From assembly GCF_000143965.1 (NCBI RefSeq), contig NC_014365.1:186001-250000 (forward strand): a stretch of 64,000 nt of DNA, written 5' to 3'. Below the pieces are notes generated by a model that did not search any database, had not been told where the DNA came from, and saw only the letters and a list, made by a program, of their open reading frames with translations. The translations under genes and the position numbers were made by a program. Shown here piece after piece: positions 15,420-29,914 of the stretch (position 1 is the stretch's first letter; each line of letters starts with the position of its first letter). Source of the stretch: Desulfarculus baarsii DSM 2075. Lineage in GTDB: Bacteria; Desulfobacterota; Desulfarculia; Desulfarculales; Desulfarculaceae.

Positions 15420-16163
15420 TCAGTGGCCCAGCGGGCAGAAGCGCTCCAGGCCAAGTAGCTCCGCCGCCCCGGCGATGGTCACGCCAAAGAAAATCACCGG
15501 CCGGGGGCCGGCGGCGGCGCGGACGGCCTCGATGCTGTTGTTGGCCAGGGTCGAGCCGGTGGCGGCCAGCACGTCGGCCCAGGCCGCCAGGCGCTCCAGG
15601 TCGCGGCCGCCGTGGCCGACCGTCGCGCCGGCCACCGTGCGGCCGATGTTGTCGGGGTCCATGTCCAATATGGCCAGCTCGTAGTGGGGGGCCAGGGCCG
15701 CGGCCATGGCCGGTTGCAGGCCGACCAGGGTCACGCGGCGGGCGCCGGGGTGACGCCGGCGCAGATACTCCACCAGCTTGGGCGCGCAGAGGGTGGGCTC
15801 CTTGTCGCGGCAGTGGATGGTTTGGCGGGCCAGGCCCAGATGGGCGGCGATGGCGTTGGCGGCGGCCACGAAGGCGGCGGCGTTGAAGGGGTCGGTCAGG
15901 TCCAGGGCCAGCAGGCCGGCCACGTCGCTTTCGAAATCCCTGAAGGCGTCGGTGAAGGCCTGGCCCACGCCGCCCTTGAAGCTGGCCTCGATGATGCGCT
16001 CCTTGCCTTTTTGCAGGGGGAAGTCATCGCGCTCGGGCGTGCCGATGGCCTGTTTGACGCTCAGGGGCTTGATGCGCACGGCCACCTGCTCGGCCAGCAG
16101 GCCGCGCCGTTGGGCCAGGCTGGTCAGTTCGCCCCGCAGGGCCTGGATGGTGCTGTCGTTCAT
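15420..16163 (-). CDS. DUF364 / DUF4213 putative heavy-metal chelation protein
   Basis: 247 aa from ATG 16163, which overlaps the stop of the ATPase gene before it. An N-terminal enolase-like DUF4213 part (MNDSTIQALRGELTSLAQRR to ~85, GKERIIEASFKGGVGQAFTD) is followed by the DUF364 Rossmann-type part (VTLVGLQPAMAAALAPHYEL, DVLAATGSTLANNSIEAV, PVIFFGVTIAGAAELLG). The family is described as a putative heavy-metal chelation protein, from a structure and from gene context. It ends the seven-gene TonB/ABC operon, so it probably handles the imported metal or its complex in the cytosol. Exact chemistry is unknown. Confidence 0.88.
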   Translation of the reverse strand: MNDSTIQALRGELTSLAQRRGLLAEQVAVRIKPLSVKQAIGTPERDDFPLQKGKERIIEASFKGGVGQAFTDAFRDFESDVAGLLALDLTDPFNAAAFVAAANAIAAHLGLARQTIHCRDKEPTLCAPKLVEYLRRRHPGARRVTLVGLQPAMAAALAPHYELAILDMDPDNIGRTVAGATVGHGGRDLERLAAWADVLAATGSTLANNSIEAVRAAAGPRPVIFFGVTIAGAAELLGLERFCPLGH

Positions 16164-17005
16164 TGGCGCTTGTCCCTTCCGGCGCTTATCGCGCTGATGG
16201 GGGCCGAATCTTCCGCCGGGGCGGGCCGGCCCAGGTTGCGCGGCGCGCAAATCCTGCCGCCGCCGGGCAGGCTTTCCACGCCGATGGGGCAATCATAGAG
16301 CCTTTGCAGGTTTTTTTCATTGATGACCTGGTCCGCCGGCCCTTCGGCGATGATCCGCCCGCGCCGCAACAAGGCCGCCCGGCCGCCGATCCACAGGGCG
16401 TGATCGGGAAAGTGGGTCGACTGCACGATGGCCCGGCCCTCGTCGGCCAGGGCGCGCAGGCGCTCCAGCAGACGCAGTTGCGCGCCGTAGTCCAGGCCGC
16501 TGGCTGGTTCGTCGAGGATCAGCACGGCCGCGTCCTGGGCCAGGGCCCGGGCGATGAGCGTCAGTTGGCGCTCGCCGCCGCTGAGGTCGGTGTAGGGCCG
16601 CCGGGCCAGATGGCCGATGCCCAGACGCTCCAGGGCGGCCAGGGCCAGGGCCTCGTCGGCCTTGCCGAAGCGGAACCAAAAGGGCTTGTGGGGCAGGCGG
16701 CCCATCAAGACCACCTCCAGCACGGCATAGGCAAAGGCCGGGCGGTGGTTTTGCGGCACGTAGGCCAGGCGGCGGGCGACGTTCTTGGCCGACAGCCCGG
16801 CCATGTCCTGGCCATCCAGCAGCACCCGGCCGCTTTGGGGCCGCGCCAGGCCCAGCAGCAGCTTCAAAAGCGTCGTCTTGCCGCCGCCGTTGGGCCCCAA
16901 AATCGACAGCACCTGGCCCGGCGCGACGCCCAGGCTCACATCGCCCAGCGCCACCCGCCGGCCATAAGCGTGGCCCAGGTTTTCGGCCGCCAGTAGCGCC
17001 GTCAT
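16160..17005 (-). CDS. FecE/BtuD-type ABC importer ATPase
   Basis: 281 aa from ATG 17005. All ATPase motifs are present: Walker A LGPNGGGKTTLLKLL, Q-loop YVPQNH, signature LSGGERQLTLIARALAQD, Walker B AVLILDEPASGLD, and the switch His in QSTHFPDHALW. This sequence type pairs with FecCD permeases for iron-siderophore, cobalamin, haem or molybdate import. A ~35-residue tail after the usual end (GRPAPAEDSAPISAISAGRD) is specific. It overlaps both the permease stop and the DUF364 start by 4 bases, so the three are coupled. Confidence 0.95.
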   Translation of the reverse strand: MTALLAAENLGHAYGRRVALGDVSLGVAPGQVLSILGPNGGGKTTLLKLLLGLARPQSGRVLLDGQDMAGLSAKNVARRLAYVPQNHRPAFAYAVLEVVLMGRLPHKPFWFRFGKADEALALAALERLGIGHLARRPYTDLSGGERQLTLIARALAQDAAVLILDEPASGLDYGAQLRLLERLRALADEGRAIVQSTHFPDHALWIGGRAALLRRGRIIAEGPADQVINEKNLQRLYDCPIGVESLPGGGRICAPRNLGRPAPAEDSAPISAISAGRDKRQ

Positions 17006-18015
17006 TGCCAGCCCCGCCTGGCCTGGCCCAGGGCCGCCGCGAAAAACGGAATGCCCACCAGCGCCGTGAGAATGCCCAGGGGCGTCTCGGTGGCCAAAAG
17101 CAGCCGGGCCAGGTCGTCGACCAAAAGCAGATAGGCCCCGCCCATGAGGATCGCCGCCGGCATCAACCGTCGGTTGTCGGGCCCCACCACCATGCGGGCG
17201 ATGTGGGGGATCACCAGCCCCACCCAGCCGATGACCCCGGCCAGGGCCACGGTCAGCGCTCCGGCCACCGTGGCCGCCACGATTAGCAGCAGCCGCAAGC
17301 GGCCCACGTTGACGCCCAGGGCCCGGGCCTCCTCGTCGCCCATGCTCAGCACGTTCAGCCGGCCGGCCAGCAGCGCCAGCAGCAGCACCGCCGCCGCCAG
17401 CGGCCCGGCCATGGCCCAGACCGTGGGGCCGTCGGCCAACGTCAGCCCGCCCATCAGCCAGTGGACAATGGCCGGCAGTTGATCGTAGGGGTCGGCCACG
17501 TACTTGACCAGCGTCAACAGCGCCGTGAACATGGCGCTGCTGACCACCCCGCCCAGAATCAGCATCAGCAGCCGCTCGCCCCGGTATAGCGCGGCCAGGC
17601 CCACCGCCGCCGCCACCGCCAGCAGCCCGCAGCCCACCGCGCAAAGCTGCACCACCGGCCAGCTCTGGCCCAGCGTCATGCCCAGCGCCGCGCCAAACGA
17701 GGCCCCGGCCAACACGCCCAGTAGGTCCGGCGAAACCAGGGGGTTGACGAACATCGCCTGAAAGGCCGCGCCCGAGGCCGCCAGCGCCGCGCCGATCAAC
17801 ACCGCCGCCAGCACCCGGGGCAGGCGGATGTTGATGACGACGTTGTAAACCGTGGTCAGGCCAGGATCGGCGGCCCCGCCGTCGCCGCCCAACAGGCTGG
17901 CCGCCAGCCGGGCCAGGTCGGCCGGCGCCACGGGATAGCGGCCCAGGGCCAGCGACAGGGCCATCAGCGCGGCCAGGCCCAGGGCCAACAGCGTCGGCGT
18001 CAGGGCGTTCTTCAT
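17002..18015 (-). CDS. FecCD-family ABC importer permease
   Basis: 337 aa inner-membrane protein with about ten helices. Family marks: ALGRYPV at the first periplasmic loop, INIRLPRVLAAVLIGAALAA, AAFQAMFVNPLVSPDLLGVL and GVNVGRLRLLL near the middle, and the conserved end GLVIPHIARMVVGPDNRRLM with ETPLGILTALVGIPFF. As the only permease gene in the operon it should form a homodimer. It overlaps the binding-protein gene by 4 bases and the ATPase by 4 bases. Confidence 0.95.
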   Translation of the reverse strand: MKNALTPTLLALGLAALMALSLALGRYPVAPADLARLAASLLGGDGGAADPGLTTVYNVVINIRLPRVLAAVLIGAALAASGAAFQAMFVNPLVSPDLLGVLAGASFGAALGMTLGQSWPVVQLCAVGCGLLAVAAAVGLAALYRGERLLMLILGGVVSSAMFTALLTLVKYVADPYDQLPAIVHWLMGGLTLADGPTVWAMAGPLAAAVLLLALLAGRLNVLSMGDEEARALGVNVGRLRLLLIVAATVAGALTVALAGVIGWVGLVIPHIARMVVGPDNRRLMPAAILMGGAYLLLVDDLARLLLATETPLGILTALVGIPFFAAALGQARRGWQ

Positions 18016-19052
18016 GGGCCCAGCAGCTCCTCGGCGGCCTGGCGGCTCAGCTCCACGCCCAAAAACAGCCGGAAAAACTCCATCGTCTTGGCCGCCATGT
18101 CCACCGGGTATAGCTGGGGGTGCAGCTTGTGGGCCAGCCAGTGGGCCCCCAGCAGGCGCATGAAGCTGGGCGGCCGGTCAAACCAGTTCAGCGGCCGGGT
18201 GGGGATGGCGTACGCCCGGCCTTCCCGCACGGCCGGCAGCCCGCGCCAGAGCCCCTGCTTGAGCTCCTGGCCCAAAAACAGCGGCTCGTGGCTGAGGATC
18301 ACCTGCGGATCATAAGCCAGCACCTGCTCCATGGACACGCTCTCCATGCCATAGATGCCGCCGGCCCGACATTTGCGCACGTTCTGCCCGCCGCAAAGCT
18401 CGATCAGCTCGGCGTGAAAGGATTGATCGCACTCGGTGTGCAGGCCGCGCGGTCCCTCGGCGTAATAGACGCGGGGGCGCTTTGGCGGCGGCACGGCGGC
18501 GCGCAGGCGGGCCATGTCGTCAAGGACGCCCTGGGCGTGGGCGGCCAGGGCCCGGCCGCGCTCCGGTTGATTGCACAGTTCGCCCAAAAACAAAAAAAAG
18601 CGTGGAAAATCGGCCAGACCGCCCAACTCCACCCGCAGCACCGGCAGGCCCAGCGGGGCCAGAGTCTGTTCGATCTTCCACTGGGCGGGCTGATTGCGCC
18701 AGCCAAAGGCCAGCACCACGTCGGGCCGCGCCGCCAGCAGGCTTTCCAGATTGGCCCCCCGGCCCTGGCCAAACCAGCCGCCCAGCACGGGCAGATCCCA
18801 CAGGCGCGGGCTCAGATAGCCCCGGGCGCTCTCGGGCGGCGGCGCGTTGAGGCCCACCAGCAGCTTTGGCGACAGGGCCAGGACCATGTAGGCCGCCGGC
18901 GGCGCGGTTGCGTAGACCTTGCTCACCACCGCCGGCACATCCACCTGGCGGCCGGCCATGTCGGTGATCAGCCGGGCCTGGGCCGGGCCGGCCGCCGGCC
19001 AGAGCAGGGCCGCCAGGGCCAGGATGACGATCAAACGTGTTGCGCGGGCCAT
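18012..19052 (-). CDS. Periplasmic metal/chelate-binding protein (FecB/BtuF type)
   Basis: 346 aa with a signal peptide (residues 1-26, LIVILALAALLWPAAGPAQA). The clamp fold of peripla_BP_2 proteins is seen: ITDMAGRQVDVPAVVSKV, then the long backbone helix around ALAAHAQGVLDDMARLRAA and the second lobe PRVYYAEGPRGLHTECDQSF. Several Cys (LCNQPE, HTECDQ, LCGGQNVRKCRAG) could bind metal or form disulfides. Its second lobe resembles the domain fused to the radical-SAM protein of the same operon, which suggests both see the same ligand. Delivers substrate to the FecCD permease. Confidence 0.92.
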   Translation of the reverse strand: MARATRLIVILALAALLWPAAGPAQARLITDMAGRQVDVPAVVSKVYATAPPAAYMVLALSPKLLVGLNAPPPESARGYLSPRLWDLPVLGGWFGQGRGANLESLLAARPDVVLAFGWRNQPAQWKIEQTLAPLGLPVLRVELGGLADFPRFFLFLGELCNQPERGRALAAHAQGVLDDMARLRAAVPPPKRPRVYYAEGPRGLHTECDQSFHAELIELCGGQNVRKCRAGGIYGMESVSMEQVLAYDPQVILSHEPLFLGQELKQGLWRGLPAVREGRAYAIPTRPLNWFDRPPSFMRLLGAHWLAHKLHPQLYPVDMAAKTMEFFRLFLGVELSRQAAEELLGP

Positions 19053-19105
19053 CTTTTCGCCCCATGCCGCGCCGCCGGATCGACCAGCGGCGCGGCGCGA
19101 GAATG

Positions 19106-21088
19106 CTAGAACTTGGCCGCCAGCTCCAGGCCGTAGGTCAGGCCCACGTCCTCCCAGCCCAGGCGGGTTTGGTATCTTTCGTCGGTGAGGTTCTGGGCGA
19201 AAACGGTGGCCCGCATCTGGGCCTTGTCCAGGCTGAAGTCGTAGGACACGTTGGCGTCGATGCGCGAATATTGGTCCATCTCGTGGTAGCGGTTGTCGAT
19301 GGCGAACTGGTTGGATTCGAAATCGCTGACGTAGCGCATGAGCAGGTTGCCCTGGAAGGGCGCGAAGCGATAGCCCAGGCGCAGGGTGGCCAGATGATGG
19401 GGGATGGACTTGTCGTCGATGTCGTTGTTGGAGCGCTGATAGCCGTAGGTCAGGCCGTAGGTCAAGTCGGGGGTGAACAGCCAGCCGCCCAGGTCCAGCT
19501 CGCAGCCGCTACGCACGGCGTCGGCGTTGTCGTAGATGTTGATCACGTCGTCGCCCTTGGTGACGCTGCCCACGGCCTGCTTCATGTCGGTCAGGTCGTA
19601 GGCGAAGGCCGTGGCCGTGACCCGCAGGGCCGGCAGCGGTTGGGCCACCAGGCCCAGTTCGTAGCGCAGTTGCTTTTCGGGCTTGAGGGTCTGGCCGCTC
19701 TTGGTCAGCAGAAACTCGTCGGCGCCTTGCTCGGTGTAGCTCAGGCGCAGGGTGGCCTCCAGCATCTTGTTGATCTGATAGGCCGCGCCACCGGCCACGC
19801 CGTAGCTGGGCTCGGCCCAGACGTCGTCGATGAGGTCGCTGGGCTTGGCGTCGGTGGCCGAATACATGTTGAGGCCCTTGGTGATGTGCTTGTGATCGAC
19901 GCGCGCGCCGGCGTCGAGGCTGAGGGCCTGGCCGAGGGCGTATTCATCGTGCAGATAGAGCGAATACAACTCTTCATCGCGCGAGACGCCCTCGTAAAAG
20001 AGCTGGCCGTTGGGACAATGCCAGAAGATGGCCTGGCCGCCGACGCGAAGGTTGTTGGCCCCGCTGGCGATGATGTGGCTCAGGTCGGCCTGGACGACGT
20101 TGTCTTGCCAATCGTGCTCGGAGTAGGCCTTGGGCTTGGACCAGGAGCGATATTCGGTCTGGCCGTCGACCAGGCCGGTGTAGAGGCCCAGGTTGGTGGT
20201 CTGGCTGGCGGTCCACTGCTTGGCCGCGCTGGCGGTGGCCATCAGCGTGTCCAGGGGCTGATAGCGCCACTTGGCGTCGCTGGTCTTGCTGACGGCGGTG
20301 GAGCGCTGGATCTGCCGCGAGGCCGCGTCATAATAAAAAGAGGCGTCGGCCTTGAAGCTGTTTTGGTTGTCGTAGCCGCCCTTTAGCAGCAAGGTGTCGG
20401 AGTCGCTGCCGTTGTTCCAGTTTTCGCGGCCCTGGTCGTGCTGCTTGTTGTAGTTCAGCGAATAATAGCCGTCGCCCACGCGGTCGCCGTGGCTGAGAAA
20501 GGCCTTGTAGCGGCCCAGGTTGCCGACGCCGGCCTTGACCTGGCTCTGTTGCTTGGCGGGCTTGATGGTCTTGATGAGGATCACGCCCTGGATGGCCGTG
20601 CCGATCGATCCCAGGCCCGACAGGGGGGCCAGGGTCAGGGTGGTGGCGTCGCGGACGACGCGGATCGACTCGATCGTCTCCACCGGGAAGCTGGCCATCA
20701 CGCGGCTGGACTGGGTCCAGGGCACGTAGACGCCGTCGACGAGGATGGCGTAACCGCCGCCGCCGATGAAGTTGCCGCCGCCGCGGCCGCTGATGAAGTT
20801 CATGCCCTTGCGGCCCTGGAATGACGTTTGCAGGCCGGGAGCATAGCTGAGCACGTCAAAGACGTCGCGGGGCTCCAGCGCTTCGATGCCCGCCTGGTCG
20901 ATGCTCCAGGTGGCGGCGCGGGCGCTCTCGGGCAGGCGATAGGGGCTGTTGGGCCGCTCTTGCTCGGCGCTGGCCGAAACGTCGACGGGCTCGATCCGGT
21001 GGGTTTCCTCGGCCCGCGCCGGGGCCGGGGCCGCCAGGGCCAGGGCCAGGCCCAGCAGCATGATGATCGTGGCAAGCTCCCTCTTCAT
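19106..21088 (-). CDS. TonB-dependent outer-membrane receptor
   Basis: 660 aa. Signal peptide (1-26), a TonB-box-like stretch after it (HRIEPVDVSA), then the plug: DVFDVLSYAPGLQTSFQGRK, SGRGGGNFIGGGGYAILVDG and VETIESIRVVRD. The 22-strand barrel follows (many alternating aromatic strands, e.g. DQYSRIDANVSYDF) and ends with FAQNLTDERYQTRLG and a terminal Phe, the signal for outer-membrane insertion. It should import a scarce metal chelate using TonB energy. No cobalamin riboswitch is seen upstream. Position between the radical-SAM and binding-protein genes ties it to the ABC importer. Confidence 0.95.
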   Translation of the reverse strand: MKRELATIIMLLGLALALAAPAPARAEETHRIEPVDVSASAEQERPNSPYRLPESARAATWSIDQAGIEALEPRDVFDVLSYAPGLQTSFQGRKGMNFISGRGGGNFIGGGGYAILVDGVYVPWTQSSRVMASFPVETIESIRVVRDATTLTLAPLSGLGSIGTAIQGVILIKTIKPAKQQSQVKAGVGNLGRYKAFLSHGDRVGDGYYSLNYNKQHDQGRENWNNGSDSDTLLLKGGYDNQNSFKADASFYYDAASRQIQRSTAVSKTSDAKWRYQPLDTLMATASAAKQWTASQTTNLGLYTGLVDGQTEYRSWSKPKAYSEHDWQDNVVQADLSHIIASGANNLRVGGQAIFWHCPNGQLFYEGVSRDEELYSLYLHDEYALGQALSLDAGARVDHKHITKGLNMYSATDAKPSDLIDDVWAEPSYGVAGGAAYQINKMLEATLRLSYTEQGADEFLLTKSGQTLKPEKQLRYELGLVAQPLPALRVTATAFAYDLTDMKQAVGSVTKGDDVINIYDNADAVRSGCELDLGGWLFTPDLTYGLTYGYQRSNNDIDDKSIPHHLATLRLGYRFAPFQGNLLMRYVSDFESNQFAIDNRYHEMDQYSRIDANVSYDFSLDKAQMRATVFAQNLTDERYQTRLGWEDVGLTYGLELAAKF

Positions 21089-21121
21089 GGTTCCTCTCCG
21101 TTGGCCTTGGTGATCGTGATT

Positions 21122-22984
21122 CTAGCGTTGCGGGGCCTCCGTCGCCGCTGGCGCGATCCGCTCTCCATCGGCCGGCCAGCGCCAGTTGCCGGCGGGTTTG
21201 GCGAACGATCGATTTACCTGGCCCGGCGAAAAATCCAGGCCGTAAAAGCGCCGATAAAAGGCCTGGGCCTGGGCCATGACATCGAGGGAAACAAGCTCGG
21301 GGTGTAGTGTCCGGGCGATGTGCATCAGGCCCAGCACCCAGCGCGGGCTGCCAAAATCCCAGCCCGGCGCGGGGTGGGCGTAGACCCGCCCCTGGCGCAC
21401 GGCCCGCGCCTCCACGCCAAGTTCGCGGCACTCGGCCAAGAAATCCTCGACGGTGTTGGACAAAAACGCCGAGATGAATATCACCTCCGGGCCCAGCTCG
21501 TTGAGCCGATCCACGCTCAGGCTCCGGCCGGGCCGGCCGCCCGGCGGCAAGAGCTTGTTGAGGCTCACCCCGCCGGCCAGCTCCACCAGCCGGTTTTCCA
21601 GCCGCCCGCCCGAGAGATAAAACAGCGGCTTGGCCATGGCGTAATAGACCGTGGGCCGCCGCTCCAGCCCGGCCAGGGCCTGGGCCATATCGTCCAGTTT
21701 GGCCTCCAGATAAGCGGCCAGGGCCTCGGCCCCCTCGCGCAAATCCACGGCCGCGCCAAACCAGCGCACGGCGTCGATGTATTGGCGTGGCTCTTGGGCG
21801 CACTGGTGCAGGCGCTTGAGGCCGCCCGGCGCCAGCAGGCGCTCCCAGGCCCGCACCACGTCGGATTGCTCGCGCGAGCCCATGGCGATGACCATGGCCT
21901 CGACCATCTCCAACGCCCGCGTGAAGGGATAGCCGCCCTGAAAGTCTTCCTCTTGGTGCGCGCCGGCGGCCCGCTGGCCCACGATGTCGAGCCCCGCGCC
22001 GCAGGCCGGGCAACGTGGCTCCAGCGGCCGCGCCGGCGGCTCGCCCAGCAGCTTGGCCCCCATGGGGCCGTAGAACTCGCGGCGCAGGGCCACGTGGCCG
22101 CAGGCCGGGCAGACGGTGTCGAGAAAGCGCGTGCCCGGCGTGTTGAACAAATAGACGTGGGCCAATTCATCGCGTAGGCGCGCGCAAAAGGCCTCGGCCT
22201 GGCGCACGGCCGGCTCCTGGTTGGCCGCGGCCCCCTCGAAGGGAATAAAACGCATCAACTGCAAGGGGATACGCGGCGAGATAGCGGCCACGGCCCGGGC
22301 CAGGGCCACAAGCTCGGGCTCCTTGTCGCGGGCGTAGATCACCGAAAGCTCCACGTGGACCCCGGCCGCCACCAGCGCCCGCAGATTGCGCCACACCGGC
22401 CCCAGGCCCGCCGAACCGCCGCAGGCGTGGTAGGCCGCCTCGGAAAAGCCCTTCAGGCCGATGTTGATGAAATCCAATAGCGGCAGCAGCCGCTCCAGGG
22501 ATTGGGCCGTGAAATAGCAGTTGGTCGAACAGCCCACCTCCAGCCCCCGCGCCTTGGCCAGGGCCGCCACGCGCAGGAAGGTGGGCAACGAGGCCAGCGG
22601 GTCGTTCATCAAAAAAGCCACGCCCAGGCAATTGGCGGCGATGGCCTTTTCGACGACCAGCTCGGGCGTCAGGCGGGTCAGGGCCTTGCCGTGACGGGGC
22701 GTCTGGCGGGCGATCACCGTGGAAATGCAGCCTGGGCAATCGAAATTGCATCCCGTGGTGCTGATCTGTAGATATTTGGCCCCGGGGTTATGGTGCAACA
22801 GCGGCATCGTCTCGATGGACAGCGGGCCCACGGCCAGATAGCGGTCGGCGACGATCTCGACCACTTGGCCGTCCCGCGCCTCGTAAAGCCCGCAGGCCCC
22901 GCTCCGGCCCGGGCCCAGCAGGCAGCCGCGCTCGCAGATGTCGCAGCGGATCGCCCTCAGGCCGGCTTGCGCAACACCACCCAC
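21122..22984 (-). CDS. Radical-SAM enzyme fused to the C-terminal lobe of a FecB-type binding protein
   Basis: 620 aa from GTG 22984, overlapping the methyltransferase end by 28 bases; no signal peptide, so cytosolic. An N-terminal Cys cluster (C14, C17, C21, C31) precedes the radical-SAM motif C79-x3-C83-x2-C86 in TTGCNFDCPGC, as in PflA/AmmeMemo-like activases. A middle part has two CPACG knuckles (~294 and ~325), probably a zinc ribbon. From about residue 410 to the end the sequence follows the backbone helix and second lobe of FecB-type proteins (RPTVYYAMAKPLFYLSGGRL; SLSVDRLNELGPEVIFISAF; GRVYAHPAPGWDFGSPRWVL), without the first lobe. This fusion is unusual and suggests radical chemistry on the cargo or on a ligand bound to the lobe. 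Confidence 0.88.
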   Translation of the reverse strand: MGGVAQAGLRAIRCDICERGCLLGPGRSGACGLYEARDGQVVEIVADRYLAVGPLSIETMPLLHHNPGAKYLQISTTGCNFDCPGCISTVIARQTPRHGKALTRLTPELVVEKAIAANCLGVAFLMNDPLASLPTFLRVAALAKARGLEVGCSTNCYFTAQSLERLLPLLDFINIGLKGFSEAAYHACGGSAGLGPVWRNLRALVAAGVHVELSVIYARDKEPELVALARAVAAISPRIPLQLMRFIPFEGAAANQEPAVRQAEAFCARLRDELAHVYLFNTPGTRFLDTVCPACGHVALRREFYGPMGAKLLGEPPARPLEPRCPACGAGLDIVGQRAAGAHQEEDFQGGYPFTRALEMVEAMVIAMGSREQSDVVRAWERLLAPGGLKRLHQCAQEPRQYIDAVRWFGAAVDLREGAEALAAYLEAKLDDMAQALAGLERRPTVYYAMAKPLFYLSGGRLENRLVELAGGVSLNKLLPPGGRPGRSLSVDRLNELGPEVIFISAFLSNTVEDFLAECRELGVEARAVRQGRVYAHPAPGWDFGSPRWVLGLMHIARTLHPELVSLDVMAQAQAFYRRFYGLDFSPGQVNRSFAKPAGNWRWPADGERIAPAATEAPQR

Positions 22985-23589
22985 AGGCCTTCCTCCTCGC
23001 TGTCGATGATCTCCGCCCCGGCCACGCCCGCCTCGTCAAGGGCCTCCGTGAACTTTTGCCGCGTCTCGGGGCCCAGATTGCGCCGCACCATGGCCCGCCA
23101 CTTGTCGTCGCCACCATTGCGCGCGCGCATCTTGTCGCCGATGGCCTCGCGGATGGCCGCCGAGCCGAACCCGCCGCCGACCTGGGCCAGGCCGCCGGGG
23201 GCCAGCACCCGCCAGATCTCCTTGAACGCCGTCGCCAGGTCCGGCCAGAAAAAGATCGACCCCCGGCTGATGGCCAGGTCGATGGACGCCTCCGGCAAGG
23301 GCATGGCCTCCACGCCGGCCAGAATCACCTCACCCCGGCCGCTCAGGCCGCTGGCCGTCAGGTTGGCCTGGGCGATTTCGAGCATCTGGCTGGATTGATC
23401 GAGCATGCGCAGGTGAAACAGGCTCCGGCGGGCCAGCTCCAGCCCCAAATACCCGCCGCCACAGCCGATATCCAGGCAGGCCCCGGCGCTGCGCCCGCAG
23501 CGCGCCAGCATCTGCCCGGCCACCACCGGATAGAGCGGCCAAAAGATTGTGCGGGCTATCTCGTCGAACTCCTTGGCGTTGGTCTTCAT
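22957..23589 (-). CDS. Class I SAM-dependent methyltransferase, first gene of the metal-uptake operon
   Basis: 210 aa from ATG 23589 after GGAG (7-base gap); longer reading frames add a basic unlikely extension. The SAM-binding motif I LDIGCGGGYLGLEL (~40-53), the acidic loop LDQSSQMLEIAQ and motif post-I (GVEAMPLPEASIDLAISRGS) are clear, followed by IWRVLAPGGLAQVGGG. The rest is the UbiE/Methyltransf_11 fold. Substrate unknown. It is first in a seven-gene run (methyltransferase, radical SAM, TonB receptor, FecBCD, DUF364), so it may methylate a metallophore or a metal-binding cofactor. Transcription starts at the promoter at 23698-23726. Confidence 0.9.
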   Translation of the reverse strand: MKTNAKEFDEIARTIFWPLYPVVAGQMLARCGRSAGACLDIGCGGGYLGLELARRSLFHLRMLDQSSQMLEIAQANLTASGLSGRGEVILAGVEAMPLPEASIDLAISRGSIFFWPDLATAFKEIWRVLAPGGLAQVGGGFGSAAIREAIGDKMRARNGGDDKWRAMVRRNLGPETRQKFTEALDEAGVAGAEIIDSEEEGLWVVLRKPA

Positions 23590-23640
23590 CTGCTTGCTCC
23601 GCTGACGTTTGACGGCGCGGCTTGACATCTGCCAGCGCAT

Positions 23641-23653
23641 CGATATCTTTTAC
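23641..23653 (+). promoter_or_regulatory. Second copy of the CGATAT-TTTTAC motif in the operon leader
   Basis: CGATATCTTTTAC on the plus strand matches 12 of 13 bases of CGATATATTTTAC on the minus strand at 23720-23708, which is half of the ModE-like operator plus its spacer. The two copies face each other across ~55 bases, so a second protein dimer or a loop could form in the 5' leader. Confidence 0.4.
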
Positions 23654-23696
23654 TAAAGACAGCGCGGCCCAAAAAAATATTGCCGCCTGCTTTTCA

Positions 23697-23726
23697 CGTT
23701 ATACTCCGTAAAATATATCGCGTCAA
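23697..23726 (-). promoter_or_regulatory. Strong promoter overlapped by a ModE-like operator, driving the metal-uptake operon
   Basis: On the minus strand TTGACG (23726-23721), a 17-base spacer, then TATAAC (23703-23698). The expected start site is near 23690, about 100 bases before the methyltransferase ATG. The inverted repeat CGTTATA-N10-TATATCG (23697-23720) covers the whole spacer and the -10. The E. coli modA operator has the same layout, CGTTATA-N10-CATAACG, so a ModE-type repressor is the best guess. This comparison is from memory. Confidence 0.65.
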
Positions 23727-24363: not shown

Positions 24364-24466
24364 TAAAATAAGCCTCGGGCTCAAGTCAAAATTAAAGCCT
24401 CGTCGCGCGCGGCCCCACAAAAAAAAGGCGGCCGGATGAAAAAATCATCCAGCCACCCGAGACCAT
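24364..24466. repeat. Left direct repeat flanking the accessory segment (includes a terminator copy)
   Basis: Matches 31252-31370 in the same orientation, though that copy is about 17 bases longer in the middle. Shared parts: TAAAATAAGCCTCGGGCTCA, GTCAAAA, and the hairpin GGCCGGATGA / TCATCCAGCCAC preceded by an A-run. The right copy directly follows the tRNA-Arg gene's 3' end and includes its terminator. The pair is what a duplication of a tRNA-downstream attachment region would leave. Confidence 0.65.
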
Positions 24467-25504: not shown

Positions 25505-28500
25505 ATGAGATCGAAGCTGATTGCGTTCATGCTGGCCGGAATTCTGTTCATCGTCTGCCACGGCTTCGCTATGGCCGCGGTGGGAACCAACCCCGGCGCC
25601 GGCAATCCCCACGACTATTCCGGCGTGGGCGACTGGCTGGGCACCACCGAGAGCGACCAATACACCAACAGCGTCGGGGCCACGGTCGGCGGCGACGTGG
25701 ACATGCGCCAGGGCGGCAGCGACACGGTCACCAACTCCGGGGGCGTCATCGGCGGGATTTGGATGAGCGGCTCGGGCCACAACACCGTCACCAACAGCGG
25801 CGCGGTCAGCGACACCATCTGGGGTGGTTACAATTCCGGCGCAGGCTCCAGCGGCGGTTACAACACCATCACCAACTCCGGCATGATCGACGACAGCCTG
25901 CGCGGCAGCTACAACAGCGGCGAAGGCAGCAGCGGCGGCTATAACGCCATCACCAACTCAGGCTCAGCTGCCTGGAATATGACCGGCAGCGAAAACGTCG
26001 GCGCTTACAGCTTTGGCGGCTCCAACACCATCTCCAACAGCGGAGACGCCCAAGGCAATATTTTCGGCAGCTGGAATTACGGCTCTTACAGCTTCGGCGG
26101 TTCCAACGTCATAAACAACGACAGCGACGTGGGCGGCAACATAATCGGCAGCTACAACATGAACACGGGCTCCAGCGGCGGCGGCAACGTCATAAGCAGC
26201 GAGGGCGACGTGGTCGGCTTCATTATGGGCAGCTTCAACTTTGGCGCTGGCTCCAGCGGCGGCGACAACAACATCACGGTGAGCGCCGGCGGCACGGTGG
26301 ACAGCGGCGTCTACGGCAGCTACAACATGAGCGCTGGCGCCAGCGGCGGCGACAACGTCATCGTGATTGATGGCCTGACCACCGGCGACGTCACCGGCAG
26401 CAACAACGACGGCGTGGGCGCCAGCGGCGGCGACAACAACATCTCGGTGAGCGCCAGCGGCACGGTGGAAGGCGACATCTACGGCAGCCTGAACACTGGC
26501 GCTGGCTCCAACGGCGGCGACAACACCATCACGGTGGGCGCCGGCGGCACGGTGGAAGGCTCGGTCTACGGCAGCAGCAACGAGGGCGCGAGCTCCAGCG
26601 GCGGCGGCAACACCGTCAGCAACAGCGGCACGGTGGAAGGCTCGATCTACGGCAGTTATAACGCTGGAGAGGGCAGCTCCGGCGGCGACAACACCATCAC
26701 CAACGGCGGCGCGGCCGAGGACTTCATCTACGGCAGCTACAACGTCAGCGATGGCTCCGCGGGCGGCTACAACACCATCACCAACGCCAGCGGCGGCGAG
26801 GTGAACAACGCCATCATCGGCAGCGGCAACGAAGGCGCTGGCTCCAGCGGCGGCTACAACTACATCTTCAACCACGGCCAGGCGCACAGCATCATTCAGG
26901 GCAGCTATAACGTCGGCGAAGGCAGCGGCGGAGGCTTCAACCACCTCGTCAACACCGGCACGGCCGGTGGGTTGGTGGGCAGCCACAACGAGGGCGATCA
27001 CACCAGCGGCGGCTCCAACAGCATTGTCAACGAGGGAAGCACCAACTCCACCTACGGCTCCTTCAACATCGGCGATGGCTCCAGTGGCGGCGGCAACACC
27101 ATCACCAACAGCGGCACATCGATGGCCATATTCGGCAGCAACAACGATGGCGATGGCAGCTATGGCGGCGACAACACCATCAGCAATTCCGGCACCTCGT
27201 TCACGGTTTCCGGCAGCAACAACGATGGCGATGGCAGCTATGGCGGCTACAACACCCTCGGCAACTCCGGCACGGCGTACATGTTGTTTGGCAGCCATAA
27301 CACGGGCGTTGGCAGCTATGGCGGCTTCAATATAATCACCAACTCGGGTGATGGCTCCTACATCGTCGGCAGCTTCAACAATGGCGTTGGCAGCTATGGC
27401 GGCTTCAATACAATCACCAACTCGGGTGAAATGTTGTTTCTCTATGGCTCCGTCAACATCCTCGACGGGGCCTATGGCGGCGACAATACAATCAACAACT
27501 CTGGTCGAGTGACGCAGATTGCTGGCTCTCTCAACGGCGGCGACGGAGCCTATGGCGGCTACAACACCATCTACAACTATGGCACGGTGCTTGGCGACGT
27601 CTACGGTAGCGACAACCACGGCGACCACAGCTACGGCGGCGGCAACATCATCTACAACTATGGCGCGGTGAGTGGCAGCATTTACGGCAGCAGCGGCTCT
27701 TCGGGCGGCGTGGGCAACGTCATCTACAACTATGGCGCGGTGGGCGGCGACATCCTGGCCGGCGACGGCGACGACTTTGTCTATCTGCTGGGCAACTCCT
27801 CGGTGGGAGGGGTGGTCGACGGCCAGGCCGGCATCGACAGCCTGTTCCTGGGCGATGGCTCGTACAACTCGGCCGATTTGCTCAACTTCGAAAACATGGG
27901 CTACCAGGGTTACGGCGTGGCGACCCTGCAGGGTGACTGGAACTTCAACCTGGGCGTCTCGGTGTTGGACGGCAGCCTGACCCTGCCCAGCGGCAGCACG
28001 TTGCAAACGCCGTTCTTCAGCATCGGCGACGGCGCGACGGCCCAGATCAACGGCCAGGCCACGGTGGATTCGTTCACCACCGTCAACGGCGGGCTGAACG
28101 TGTATGGCAGCCTGAACAGTCCCTTGGTGACGGTGGGTTCGGGCGGCGAGTTGAACGTGCAGGGCGCGCTGGGCGTCTCGACGCTGACCATCGCCGGCGG
28201 TGGCACGGCCCAGATCAACGGCTACCTGGGCGCTTCGACTTTCAACGTGGCCAATGGCGGCTTTGCCGACATCGGCGGTCTGGCCGTCATCGGTTCGTCC
28301 ACGACGATTTTCGGCGGGCTGCATCTCAACGGCAGTCTTTACAGCCCCGCAGTGATCTTGGGCGCCGGTTCCAATTCCTGGGGCACGGGAACCATCATCG
28401 GCAACGTGATCAACCAGGGCTGGATCATCCCCGGCAACAGCATCGGAACCATGCGCATTCTGGGCGACTACACCCAAACCGCCGGCAGCGTGCTGTGGGT

Positions 28501-29914
28501 CGAGGTGGAGCCCGGCGGCGCATCCGACCTGCTTTGGGTCAGCGGCACGGCCTACCTGAATGGCGGCTACCTGGCCGTCAGCCTGCCGCACGACCTCTAC
28601 GTCAACGGCCAGAGCTGGAACGTGCTCAGCGCCGGCGCGGTCTCGGGCGCCTTCGCCGGAATCTACAACCAGCCTGATTCGCTGACCGTGGCCCTGCGGG
28701 CGGTGGGCCGAGCCGACGGCGTCTCGCTGGAGGTGGTGCGCACGCCCTTCGCCTCGCTGGGCGCGACTCCCGGCCAAAAGGGCGTGGGCGCGGCCCTGGA
28801 CGCCATCTTGCCGCTGGCGCTCCAAAACCAGGACCAGATGTACGGCCTGCTGCTGAACATGGACTGGAACTATGACCTGGAGCAAATCAGGCAGGTTCTG
28901 GAGGCGGCCAGCCCCGAGATGTACGACGCCTTCAGCGCGGCCAGCCTGGAGGCGGCCAGGACCTTCGATCGCCTGCTGGCCTGGCGGGTGCTGCAGGCTG
29001 GCGGTGGCGCGGCCCAGCCGGCCGGCCCGAGCCAGGCGGCCGCCAAGCAGGCCAAGCCCGGCGAGCAGCCGCTGGCCGGCGGCAGGTGGTCGCTGTGGGG
29101 CCGCGCCCTGGGCGATTGGGCCAACCAAAGCGGCGACAGCGGGCATATGGGCTATCGCATCGGCGCGGGCGGCGCGGTGGTGGGGGCCGACGGCCTGCTG
29201 CTGCCCTGGCTGCGCACCGGCGTGGCCATCTCCAACTCGGTGGCCGATATCGAATGGAGCATGGCCGGCAACGAGGGCGAGCAGCGCCAGATCAATCTTG
29301 GCCTCTACGCCACGGCCGTCCTGGATGATTTCCACCTGGACGCGGCGGTCAGCTACGGCTCATACGACAACAGCGCCAAGCGCAACGTGAGCTTTGCCGA
29401 CAACAGCGGCCGGACCAACGCCGACTTTGACGGCAACACCATGCTGGCCCGCCTGGGTGGCGGTTACGACTGCAAGGCCGACGCGTTCCGGTTCGGCCCC
29501 GTCGTCTCGCTGGAATATGTCCGGCTGAGCGAGGACGGCTTCAGCGAGGGCGGCGCGGGCTACTTGGGCCTGCGGGTGGACGACCGCGACCATGACTACA
29601 CCTCGTCGCGCCTGGGCCTGCGGGCCGCGGCCGACTGGAGCCTGGCCGATCTGCGCCTGACGCCCAGCGCCTTCGCCAACTGGCTGCATGCCTTCAACAC
29701 CGAGGCCCGGACCATCCAGGCCACTTTTGGCCAATACGGCTCCGTGCCCATTGTCGTGGATGGGGCCGACCAGGCGGCCGACATGCTGGAGACCGGCCTG
29801 GGCCTGTCGGCCTCGTTCGGCGAGACGTTCTCGGTGTTCCTGGAAGGCTCGTTGCTCCAGGCCAACACCTGGAACTCCCAGGCTGTTTCGGCCGGTCTGA
29901 ACATCGCCTTCTGA
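25505..29914 (+). CDS. Giant Gly/Ser/Asn-repeat autotransporter adhesin (type Va)
   Basis: 1469 aa with ribosome site GGGGGG before ATG 25505. Signal peptide 1-24 (cut AMA-AV). Residues ~55-750 are about 20 degenerate ~30-40-residue repeats built on GSYNxGxGSSGGxNTITNSG, predicted to form a long right-handed beta-helix. Next is a pertactin-like junction (GWIIPGNSIGTMRILGDYTQ), a helical linker (~1100-1180, LEQIRQVLEAASPEMYDAFS), and the autotransporter barrel (~1195-1469) ending with Phe (SAGLNIAF). The passenger should be exported through the barrel and displayed as an adhesin or biofilm factor. It lies in the accessory segment; codon use in the repeats is skewed to Gly, Asn and Ser. Confidence 0.93.
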   Translation: MRSKLIAFMLAGILFIVCHGFAMAAVGTNPGAGNPHDYSGVGDWLGTTESDQYTNSVGATVGGDVDMRQGGSDTVTNSGGVIGGIWMSGSGHNTVTNSGAVSDTIWGGYNSGAGSSGGYNTITNSGMIDDSLRGSYNSGEGSSGGYNAITNSGSAAWNMTGSENVGAYSFGGSNTISNSGDAQGNIFGSWNYGSYSFGGSNVINNDSDVGGNIIGSYNMNTGSSGGGNVISSEGDVVGFIMGSFNFGAGSSGGDNNITVSAGGTVDSGVYGSYNMSAGASGGDNVIVIDGLTTGDVTGSNNDGVGASGGDNNISVSASGTVEGDIYGSLNTGAGSNGGDNTITVGAGGTVEGSVYGSSNEGASSSGGGNTVSNSGTVEGSIYGSYNAGEGSSGGDNTITNGGAAEDFIYGSYNVSDGSAGGYNTITNASGGEVNNAIIGSGNEGAGSSGGYNYIFNHGQAHSIIQGSYNVGEGSGGGFNHLVNTGTAGGLVGSHNEGDHTSGGSNSIVNEGSTNSTYGSFNIGDGSSGGGNTITNSGTSMAIFGSNNDGDGSYGGDNTISNSGTSFTVSGSNNDGDGSYGGYNTLGNSGTAYMLFGSHNTGVGSYGGFNIITNSGDGSYIVGSFNNGVGSYGGFNTITNSGEMLFLYGSVNILDGAYGGDNTINNSGRVTQIAGSLNGGDGAYGGYNTIYNYGTVLGDVYGSDNHGDHSYGGGNIIYNYGAVSGSIYGSSGSSGGVGNVIYNYGAVGGDILAGDGDDFVYLLGNSSVGGVVDGQAGIDSLFLGDGSYNSADLLNFENMGYQGYGVATLQGDWNFNLGVSVLDGSLTLPSGSTLQTPFFSIGDGATAQINGQATVDSFTTVNGGLNVYGSLNSPLVTVGSGGELNVQGALGVSTLTIAGGGTAQINGYLGASTFNVANGGFADIGGLAVIGSSTTIFGGLHLNGSLYSPAVILGAGSNSWGTGTIIGNVINQGWIIPGNSIGTMRILGDYTQTAGSVLWVEVEPGGASDLLWVSGTAYLNGGYLAVSLPHDLYVNGQSWNVLSAGAVSGAFAGIYNQPDSLTVALRAVGRADGVSLEVVRTPFASLGATPGQKGVGAALDAILPLALQNQDQMYGLLLNMDWNYDLEQIRQVLEAASPEMYDAFSAASLEAARTFDRLLAWRVLQAGGGAAQPAGPSQAAAKQAKPGEQPLAGGRWSLWGRALGDWANQSGDSGHMGYRIGAGGAVVGADGLLLPWLRTGVAISNSVADIEWSMAGNEGEQRQINLGLYATAVLDDFHLDAAVSYGSYDNSAKRNVSFADNSGRTNADFDGNTMLARLGGGYDCKADAFRFGPVVSLEYVRLSEDGFSEGGAGYLGLRVDDRDHDYTSSRLGLRAAADWSLADLRLTPSAFANWLHAFNTEARTIQATFGQYGSVPIVVDGADQAADMLETGLGLSASFGETFSVFLEGSLLQANTWNSQAVSAGLNIAF
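25740..27760 (+). repeat. In-frame degenerate repeats inside the autotransporter gene
   Basis: About 20 copies of 84-120-base units with the shared core coding for GGxNTIxNSG and GSxNxG. Neighbouring copies between 27120 and 27440 are most alike (repeated NNDGDGSYGG and GVGSYGGFN), showing recent local duplication. Length variation by recombination is likely. Confidence 0.85.

Follow-up and report, generated by a model that had tools for sequence, protein, structure and literature searches.

In Desulfarculus baarsii, seven genes form a directon running from 23589 to 15420 on the reverse strand of the window, i.e., of the whole 64,000-nt stretch of DNA that was analyzed (Table 1). In the order of transcription, they code for a class I SAM-dependent methyltransferase, a fusion of a radical-SAM domain with part of a periplasmic substrate-binding protein, a TonB-dependent outer-membrane receptor, a class III binding protein, a FecCD-type permease, an ABC transporter ATPase, and a DUF364 protein. 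The fusion gene overlaps the methyltransferase gene by 28 bases, the receptor gene follows after a gap of 33 bases and the binding-protein gene after another of 53 bases, and each of the last three genes overlaps its predecessor by 4 bases. All seven open reading frames were recovered in the order, on the single strand, and with the spacing reported by the first-pass annotation, and fell into the Pfam families that it had named. The methyltransferase gene most probably starts at the ATG at 23589, which has GGAG ahead of it; a longer frame, opening at 23640, is less probable. An open reading frame for a GNAT acetyltransferase (24311-23799) lies immediately ahead of the operon promoter and is itself preceded by a strong terminator-like hairpin (24426-24458, reverse strand). 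Elsewhere, the window contains a repetitive, autotransporter-like frame of 1,469 amino acids (25505-29914, forward strand) that is rich in SYN-G-SSGG-NTITNSG repeats and ends in a barrel-like region, as well as a TPP riboswitch (RF00059; 40774-40882, forward strand; 66.1 bits).

Table 1. Features of the operon and its promoter region, in the order of transcription
Feature	Position	Strand	Evidence
-35 hexamer TTGACG	23721..23726	-	Sequence, 5/6 to consensus
-10 hexamer TATAAC, 17 bases from -35	23698..23703	-	Sequence
Candidate ModE-type operator CGATATATTTTACGGAGTATAACG	23697..23720	-	Lies over spacer and -10 hexamer
Second, weak ModE-like sequence (+ strand reads CGATATCTTTTACTAAAGACAGCG)	23641..23664	-	3 mismatches to relaxed consensus
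Class I SAM-dependent methyltransferase, 210 aa	22957..23589	-	Methyltransf_11, 70.6 bits (Pfam)
Radical-SAM/binding-protein fusion	21122..22984	-	Radical_SAM, 53.3 bits; Peripla_BP_2, 26.3 bits (Pfam)
TonB-dependent outer-membrane receptor, plug and barrel	19106..21088	-	TonB_dep_Rec, 82.6 bits; Plug, 42.6 bits
Class III periplasmic binding protein	18012..19052	-	Peripla_BP_2, 45.8 bits; family of 4pag, nearest characterized family MolA (HI_1472)
FecCD-type permease	17002..18015	-	FecCD, 251 bits; nearest solved relative HI1471 (MolB)
ABC transporter ATPase, 281 aa	16160..17005	-	ABC_tran, 113.6 bits
DUF364 protein (PF04016, putative heavy-metal chelation)	15420..16163	-	39.2 bits versus gathering score of 23

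Receptor, binding protein, permease, and ATPase thus lie together in one operon, as in chelate importers of the TonB-FecBCD type. The structure search returned no close solved relative of the TonB receptor. The methyltransferase was modeled with high confidence (pLDDT 95.5), and its closest solved structure is 3dlc (MMP1179; 41% identity). The operon's last protein exceeds the cutoff for DUF364; its Pfam matches did not include the DUF4213 half. Genes for DUF364 proteins have been noted earlier in the context of molybdate, tungstate, iron, and vanadium transport (PMC2954201).

Among characterized solved transporters, the type II permease and the binding protein are closest to MolB and MolA. 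A profile built from 23 permease homologues scored 344 bits against MolB, compared to 266 for FhuB, 253 for HmuU, and 199 for BtuC, and HI1471 (MolB) was also the best solved match. With the binding-protein profile, MolA was the best characterized match (140 bits, versus 56 for BtuF), ranking behind two uncharacterized structures, 4pag and 4ovk. The ATPase was slightly nearer to FhuC (136 bits in a phmmer search) than to MolC (129.5 bits) and does not discriminate. Assignment as a cobalamin importer (BtuFCD) was rejected, as scores reached only 60 of 234 bits for BtuF and 176 of 461 bits for BtuC relative to the equivalog cutoffs. MolA binds molybdate and tungstate, and MolBC-A imports bare molybdate with low affinity (PMC4031551); kinship to it is therefore no proof of a chelated cargo. 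The H. influenzae system (HI1470-1472) shares with the operon a type II (FecBCD-like) ABC importer, but, in contrast to the operon, no TonB receptor, methyltransferase, radical-SAM fusion, or DUF364 protein is known from it.

While the transport parts are ordinary, the fused enzyme is unusual, as is the cargo that we propose for it. The radical-SAM domain spans approximately residues 42 to 288 and is followed by the C-terminal part of a class III binding protein (residues 357 to 588), whose Peripla_BP_2 score lies just below the Pfam cutoff of 27.5. The CxxxCxxC motif (Cys79, Cys83, and Cys86) and further cysteines at positions 14, 17, 21, 31, 292, and 295 are invariant in 51 homologues. Structure prediction yielded a rigid two-domain model that was confident throughout (pLDDT 92.4, pTM 0.90). 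In this predicted model, residues 42 to 279 match pyruvate formate-lyase activating enzyme (Z 19.8), and residues 357 to 588 match class III binding proteins, including MolA (Z 18.6), which bears out the earlier description of this part as half of a binding protein. This half and the binding protein of the operon itself are homologues, sharing 31% identity over 236 amino acids (profile E value, 1.1e-24), which supports action of the fusion on the same ligand. No signal peptide was apparent on the fusion, which, together with the radical-SAM domain, would place it in the cytoplasm. The best match of the radical-SAM half was the AmmeMemoRadiSam-system enzyme TIGR04337; membership was rejected at 109 bits versus a cutoff of 220. 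Unlike that system's enzyme, the fusion carries a binding-protein lobe, and none of the operon's seven genes is an AMMECR1 or Memo gene. At two loci (L117 and L119), radical-SAM genes lacking a binding-protein lobe lie near FecCD permeases (390 and 378 bits) and may represent the system in unfused form.

The fusion is sparsely distributed: the full protein was found in 7 of 395 sampled genomes of the phylum, that of D. baarsii included. Scanning of 84,980 species genomes revealed 70 further loci in bacteria and archaea, among them Desulfobacterota, Campylobacterota, Bacillota, Chlorobi, Synergistales, Deferribacteraceae, Thiobaca, and Methanomicrobiales. Desulfocarbo indianensis (L047) is the nearest named relative in which the order of the first six genes is conserved; its fusion is 62% identical. 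At the 65 loci with a full-length fusion, neighbors within 7 kb included a methyltransferase (50 loci), a class III binding protein (42), an ATPase (42), a FecCD permease (29), a TonB receptor (11), and DUF364 (10), all of these counts being lower bounds because genes were called in this analysis and many contigs are short. The methyltransferase gene directly adjoins the fusion gene in 45 of the 65. This co-location is not due to chance. The core consists of the methyltransferase, the fusion, and the FecBCD-type importer, and the TonB receptor and DUF364 are optional additions, which would be in keeping with use of the core by Gram-positive bacteria and archaea as well. Hence, the expectation of the first-pass annotation that the genes would occur together in other genomes held for the core and failed for the seven genes as a fixed unit. 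Genes for ExbB, ExbD, and TonB accompany the core in several Gram-negative bacteria. Other neighbors were a bacterial globin gene between modE and the binding-protein gene in Sulfurospirillum operons (L069, L076, and L082) and, beside the fusion gene at five loci (L053, L056, L060, L084, and L099), genes for a HypB/CobW-like GTPase and an ABC-type ATPase.

The strong promoter that had been claimed ahead of the operon was confirmed as TTGACG-17-TATAAC (23726-23698). It was read directly from the sequence, as the automated scan requires T as the last base of the -10 hexamer and did not list TATAAC. What had gone unnoticed is a candidate ModE-type operator within this promoter. The search used the published ModE core consensus (PMC545781) in place of an earlier pattern built partly from the operon's own site. 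With up to three mismatches, this consensus occurred at two places only in the 3.66-Mb genome (one contig, 3,655,731 bases), namely at the operon promoter, where the fit requires all three mismatches, and just upstream of the single modA gene of the genome, which scores above the curated cutoff. The second ModE-like sequence, between the promoter and the first gene, may be a chance match. Since an operator over the spacer and the -10 hexamer has the layout of a repressor site, the operon would be expected to be transcribed under molybdenum or tungsten (Mo/W) shortage.

The genome encodes a putative regulator for such a site, a ModE DNA-binding domain protein of 129 amino acids (2706533-2706778 of the genome contig), which at 79 bits scores below the family cutoff of 98.5 and which may bind the operator. 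This homologue consists of the DNA-binding domain only, lacking the molybdate-sensing (Mop/TOBE) domain, and no Mop domain was found anywhere in the genome, so that molybdenum sensing here lacks an explanation. ModE proteins reduced to the DNA-binding domain have been described in other Deltaproteobacteria, where the sensing mechanism is likewise unclear (PMC545781). The operon resembles members of the ModE regulon, such as modABC, in having a ModE-type operator over its promoter, in common with modA of the same genome, and differs from them in encoding a TonB/FecBCD-type system with SAM enzymes and in the regulator without a molybdate-binding domain.

Signs of Mo/W control recurred at the loci of relatives. 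In 1.2 Mb of fusion loci, the ModE consensus with up to two mismatches was found at 9 sites, versus none for six scrambled palindromic controls; at three mismatches there were 21 sites versus 0 to 8, and at four mismatches there was no excess (51 versus 39 to 85). Four-mismatch sites at L053 and beside the fusion gene in L072 and L075 were consequently given no weight on their own. Counted by locus, a best site with at most two mismatches was present in 9 of 69 fusion loci and in none of 40 random windows or 16 windows around other radical-SAM genes. ModE sites lie ahead of operon genes in two relatives of the D. baarsii locus, L046 and Desulfocarbo (L047), and in Sulfurospirillum-type loci (L069, L076, L080, L082, and L112), 23 bases before the fusion gene in a Chlorobiaceae metagenome-assembled genome (MAG) (L078), and upstream of the gene run in Thiobaca (L077). 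In four Campylobacterota loci of the Sulfurospirillum type, the run itself starts with a full ModE gene. A ModE box with ModA, ModB, and ModE-like genes nearby was also observed at an AmmeMemo-type radical-SAM locus (L131, position 8073).

Other relatives carry RNA elements instead. In a Geobacter MAG (L115), the Mo/W cofactor riboswitch RF01055 precedes both the FecCD gene and a run of DUF364, TonB receptor, methyltransferase, and fusion genes, and a further copy precedes a gene adjoining modA. In a Syntrophomonadaceae MAG (L066), the run FecCD-ATPase-SBP-x-SBP-fusion-methyltransferase is preceded by RF01055 and then by a terminator-like hairpin and a Shine-Dalgarno sequence, and a Moco-II RNA heads the operon run in L074. 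That differing control devices for the same metals are attached to the same operon is the strongest argument for Mo/W. Genes for ModE, ModA, ModB, or HTH-PBP_like proteins were found at 19 of 69 fusion loci versus 2 of 40 random 20-kb windows (Fisher p 0.003, only a guide since the fusion loci include related genomes and are not independent) and at 2 of 16 other radical-SAM loci; the random windows had been added because a first control with other radical-SAM loci (2 of 19) was weak. Altogether, at least one Mo/W sign was present at 28 of the 70 loci. The remaining 42 had none of the signatures sought, with many of these loci being truncated and the Rfam search covering 31 of these loci.

From these observations, we consider it likely that the metal of the operon is molybdenum or tungsten. 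The first-pass annotation had proposed an undescribed metal-acquisition system whose two SAM enzymes would build, alter, or break down the metal complex that is imported. We found no paper describing the operon, or such a Mo/W route, in the open-access literature searched, and the proposal stands in this respect; the metal, which it had left open, is most likely Mo/W. For an enzyme equipped with the ligand-gripping half of its transporter's binding protein, the simplest role is to act on imported cargo, and import of chelated Mo/W followed by cytoplasmic processing by the fusion is accordingly our preferred reading, to which we give about an even chance. A ModE-type regulator would repress the operon when Mo/W is plentiful. 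When the metal is scarce, Mo/W in chelated form would cross the outer membrane through the TonB receptor and then be delivered into the cytoplasm by the class III binding protein together with the MolBC-like ABC transporter (FecCD and ATPase). There, the fusion would hold the ligand or its chelator by its own copy of the binding-protein lobe and, with the methyltransferase, modify or dismantle the chelate so that the metal becomes usable; DUF364 probably would help in release or chelation. The cargo would be a complex and not the bare oxyanion, its metal either molybdenum or tungsten, and the enzymes would act on imported material and not build a chelator for export. Cytoplasmic processing of cargo alongside TonB-FecBCD systems is known from anaerobic heme degradation by the radical-SAM enzymes ChuW/HutW. 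Siderophore and heme systems of this type share with the operon an outer-membrane receptor, a binding protein, a type II importer, and an anaerobic-type cargo enzyme, whereas the operon differs by its Mo/W control elements and by the fusion of the enzyme to a binding-protein lobe.

The main rival is synthesis of a chelator, since the methyltransferase (nearest solved structure, 3dlc) and DUF364 would fit this as well. Here, methyltransferase and fusion would build a small SAM-derived chelator (a molybdophore) for export; once it has bound Mo/W outside the cell, the TonB receptor and the ABC transporter would reimport it, with the lobe recognizing the finished product. The frequent adjacency of methyltransferase and fusion genes, sometimes with an extra methyltransferase or O-methyltransferase, speaks for it, DUF364 has been proposed to build chelators (PMC2954201), and the Mo/W control elements also fit. 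However, no exporter family was prominent among the most frequent unlabeled operon-gene families, no NRPS-like or amino-acid-condensing enzyme was seen, and the homology between the lobe and the binding protein of the importer points to an enzyme that handles imported ligand; we judge this route unlikely, though a serious contender. Still less probable in our view is plain oxyanion import, in which a MolBC-A-like importer with a TonB receptor takes up bare molybdate or tungstate and the SAM enzymes act elsewhere in Mo/W cofactor metabolism (e.g., in cofactor modification or Mo sensing). Genes for formate dehydrogenase (FDH), MoeA-like, XdhC, and FmdE proteins near some fusion loci would suit it, as would the importer's closest relative being MolBC-A, but a small oxyanion passes porins and does not need a TonB receptor, and the C-terminal half of the fusion ties the enzyme to the cargo.

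Acquisition of cobalamin or another corrinoid, or of an iron siderophore, appears highly improbable, and cobalamin and iron are disfavored as cargo. The binding protein does resemble BtuF in a single-sequence search, and a cobalamin riboswitch lies near the locus of one relative (L055). That riboswitch, however, precedes CbiB/CbiK-type genes and not the fusion gene, the Rfam search found none in the 64,000-nt window, the profiles favor MolA and MolB over BtuF and BtuC and over hemin and hydroxamate systems, and relatives carry ModE boxes and molybdenum riboswitches. A response to cobalamin or a siderophore only, which the first-pass annotation had named as grounds for giving up a new system, is thus at odds with the sequence evidence, which points to Mo/W.

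Returning to chelate import with processing by the fusion, we tentatively propose, with somewhat less assurance than for the operon itself, an oxygen-independent pathway in sulfate reducers, other anaerobic bacteria, and methanogens in which an organic Mo/W chelate is imported and its metal freed by a lobe-bearing radical-SAM enzyme, as the Mo/W counterpart of siderophore uptake and release. Formate dehydrogenases, nitrogenase, and many anaerobic enzymes depend on molybdenum or tungsten, and, to our knowledge, the Mo/W uptake described so far is that of bare oxyanions at the inner membrane. The proposal offers a testable function for DUF364, for two uncharacterized proteins of solved structure (the binding protein 4pag and the methyltransferase 3dlc), and for a radical-SAM family without assignment. 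If it is true, cells would, much as they do with iron and heme, also scavenge molybdenum and tungsten in complexed form and process them internally.
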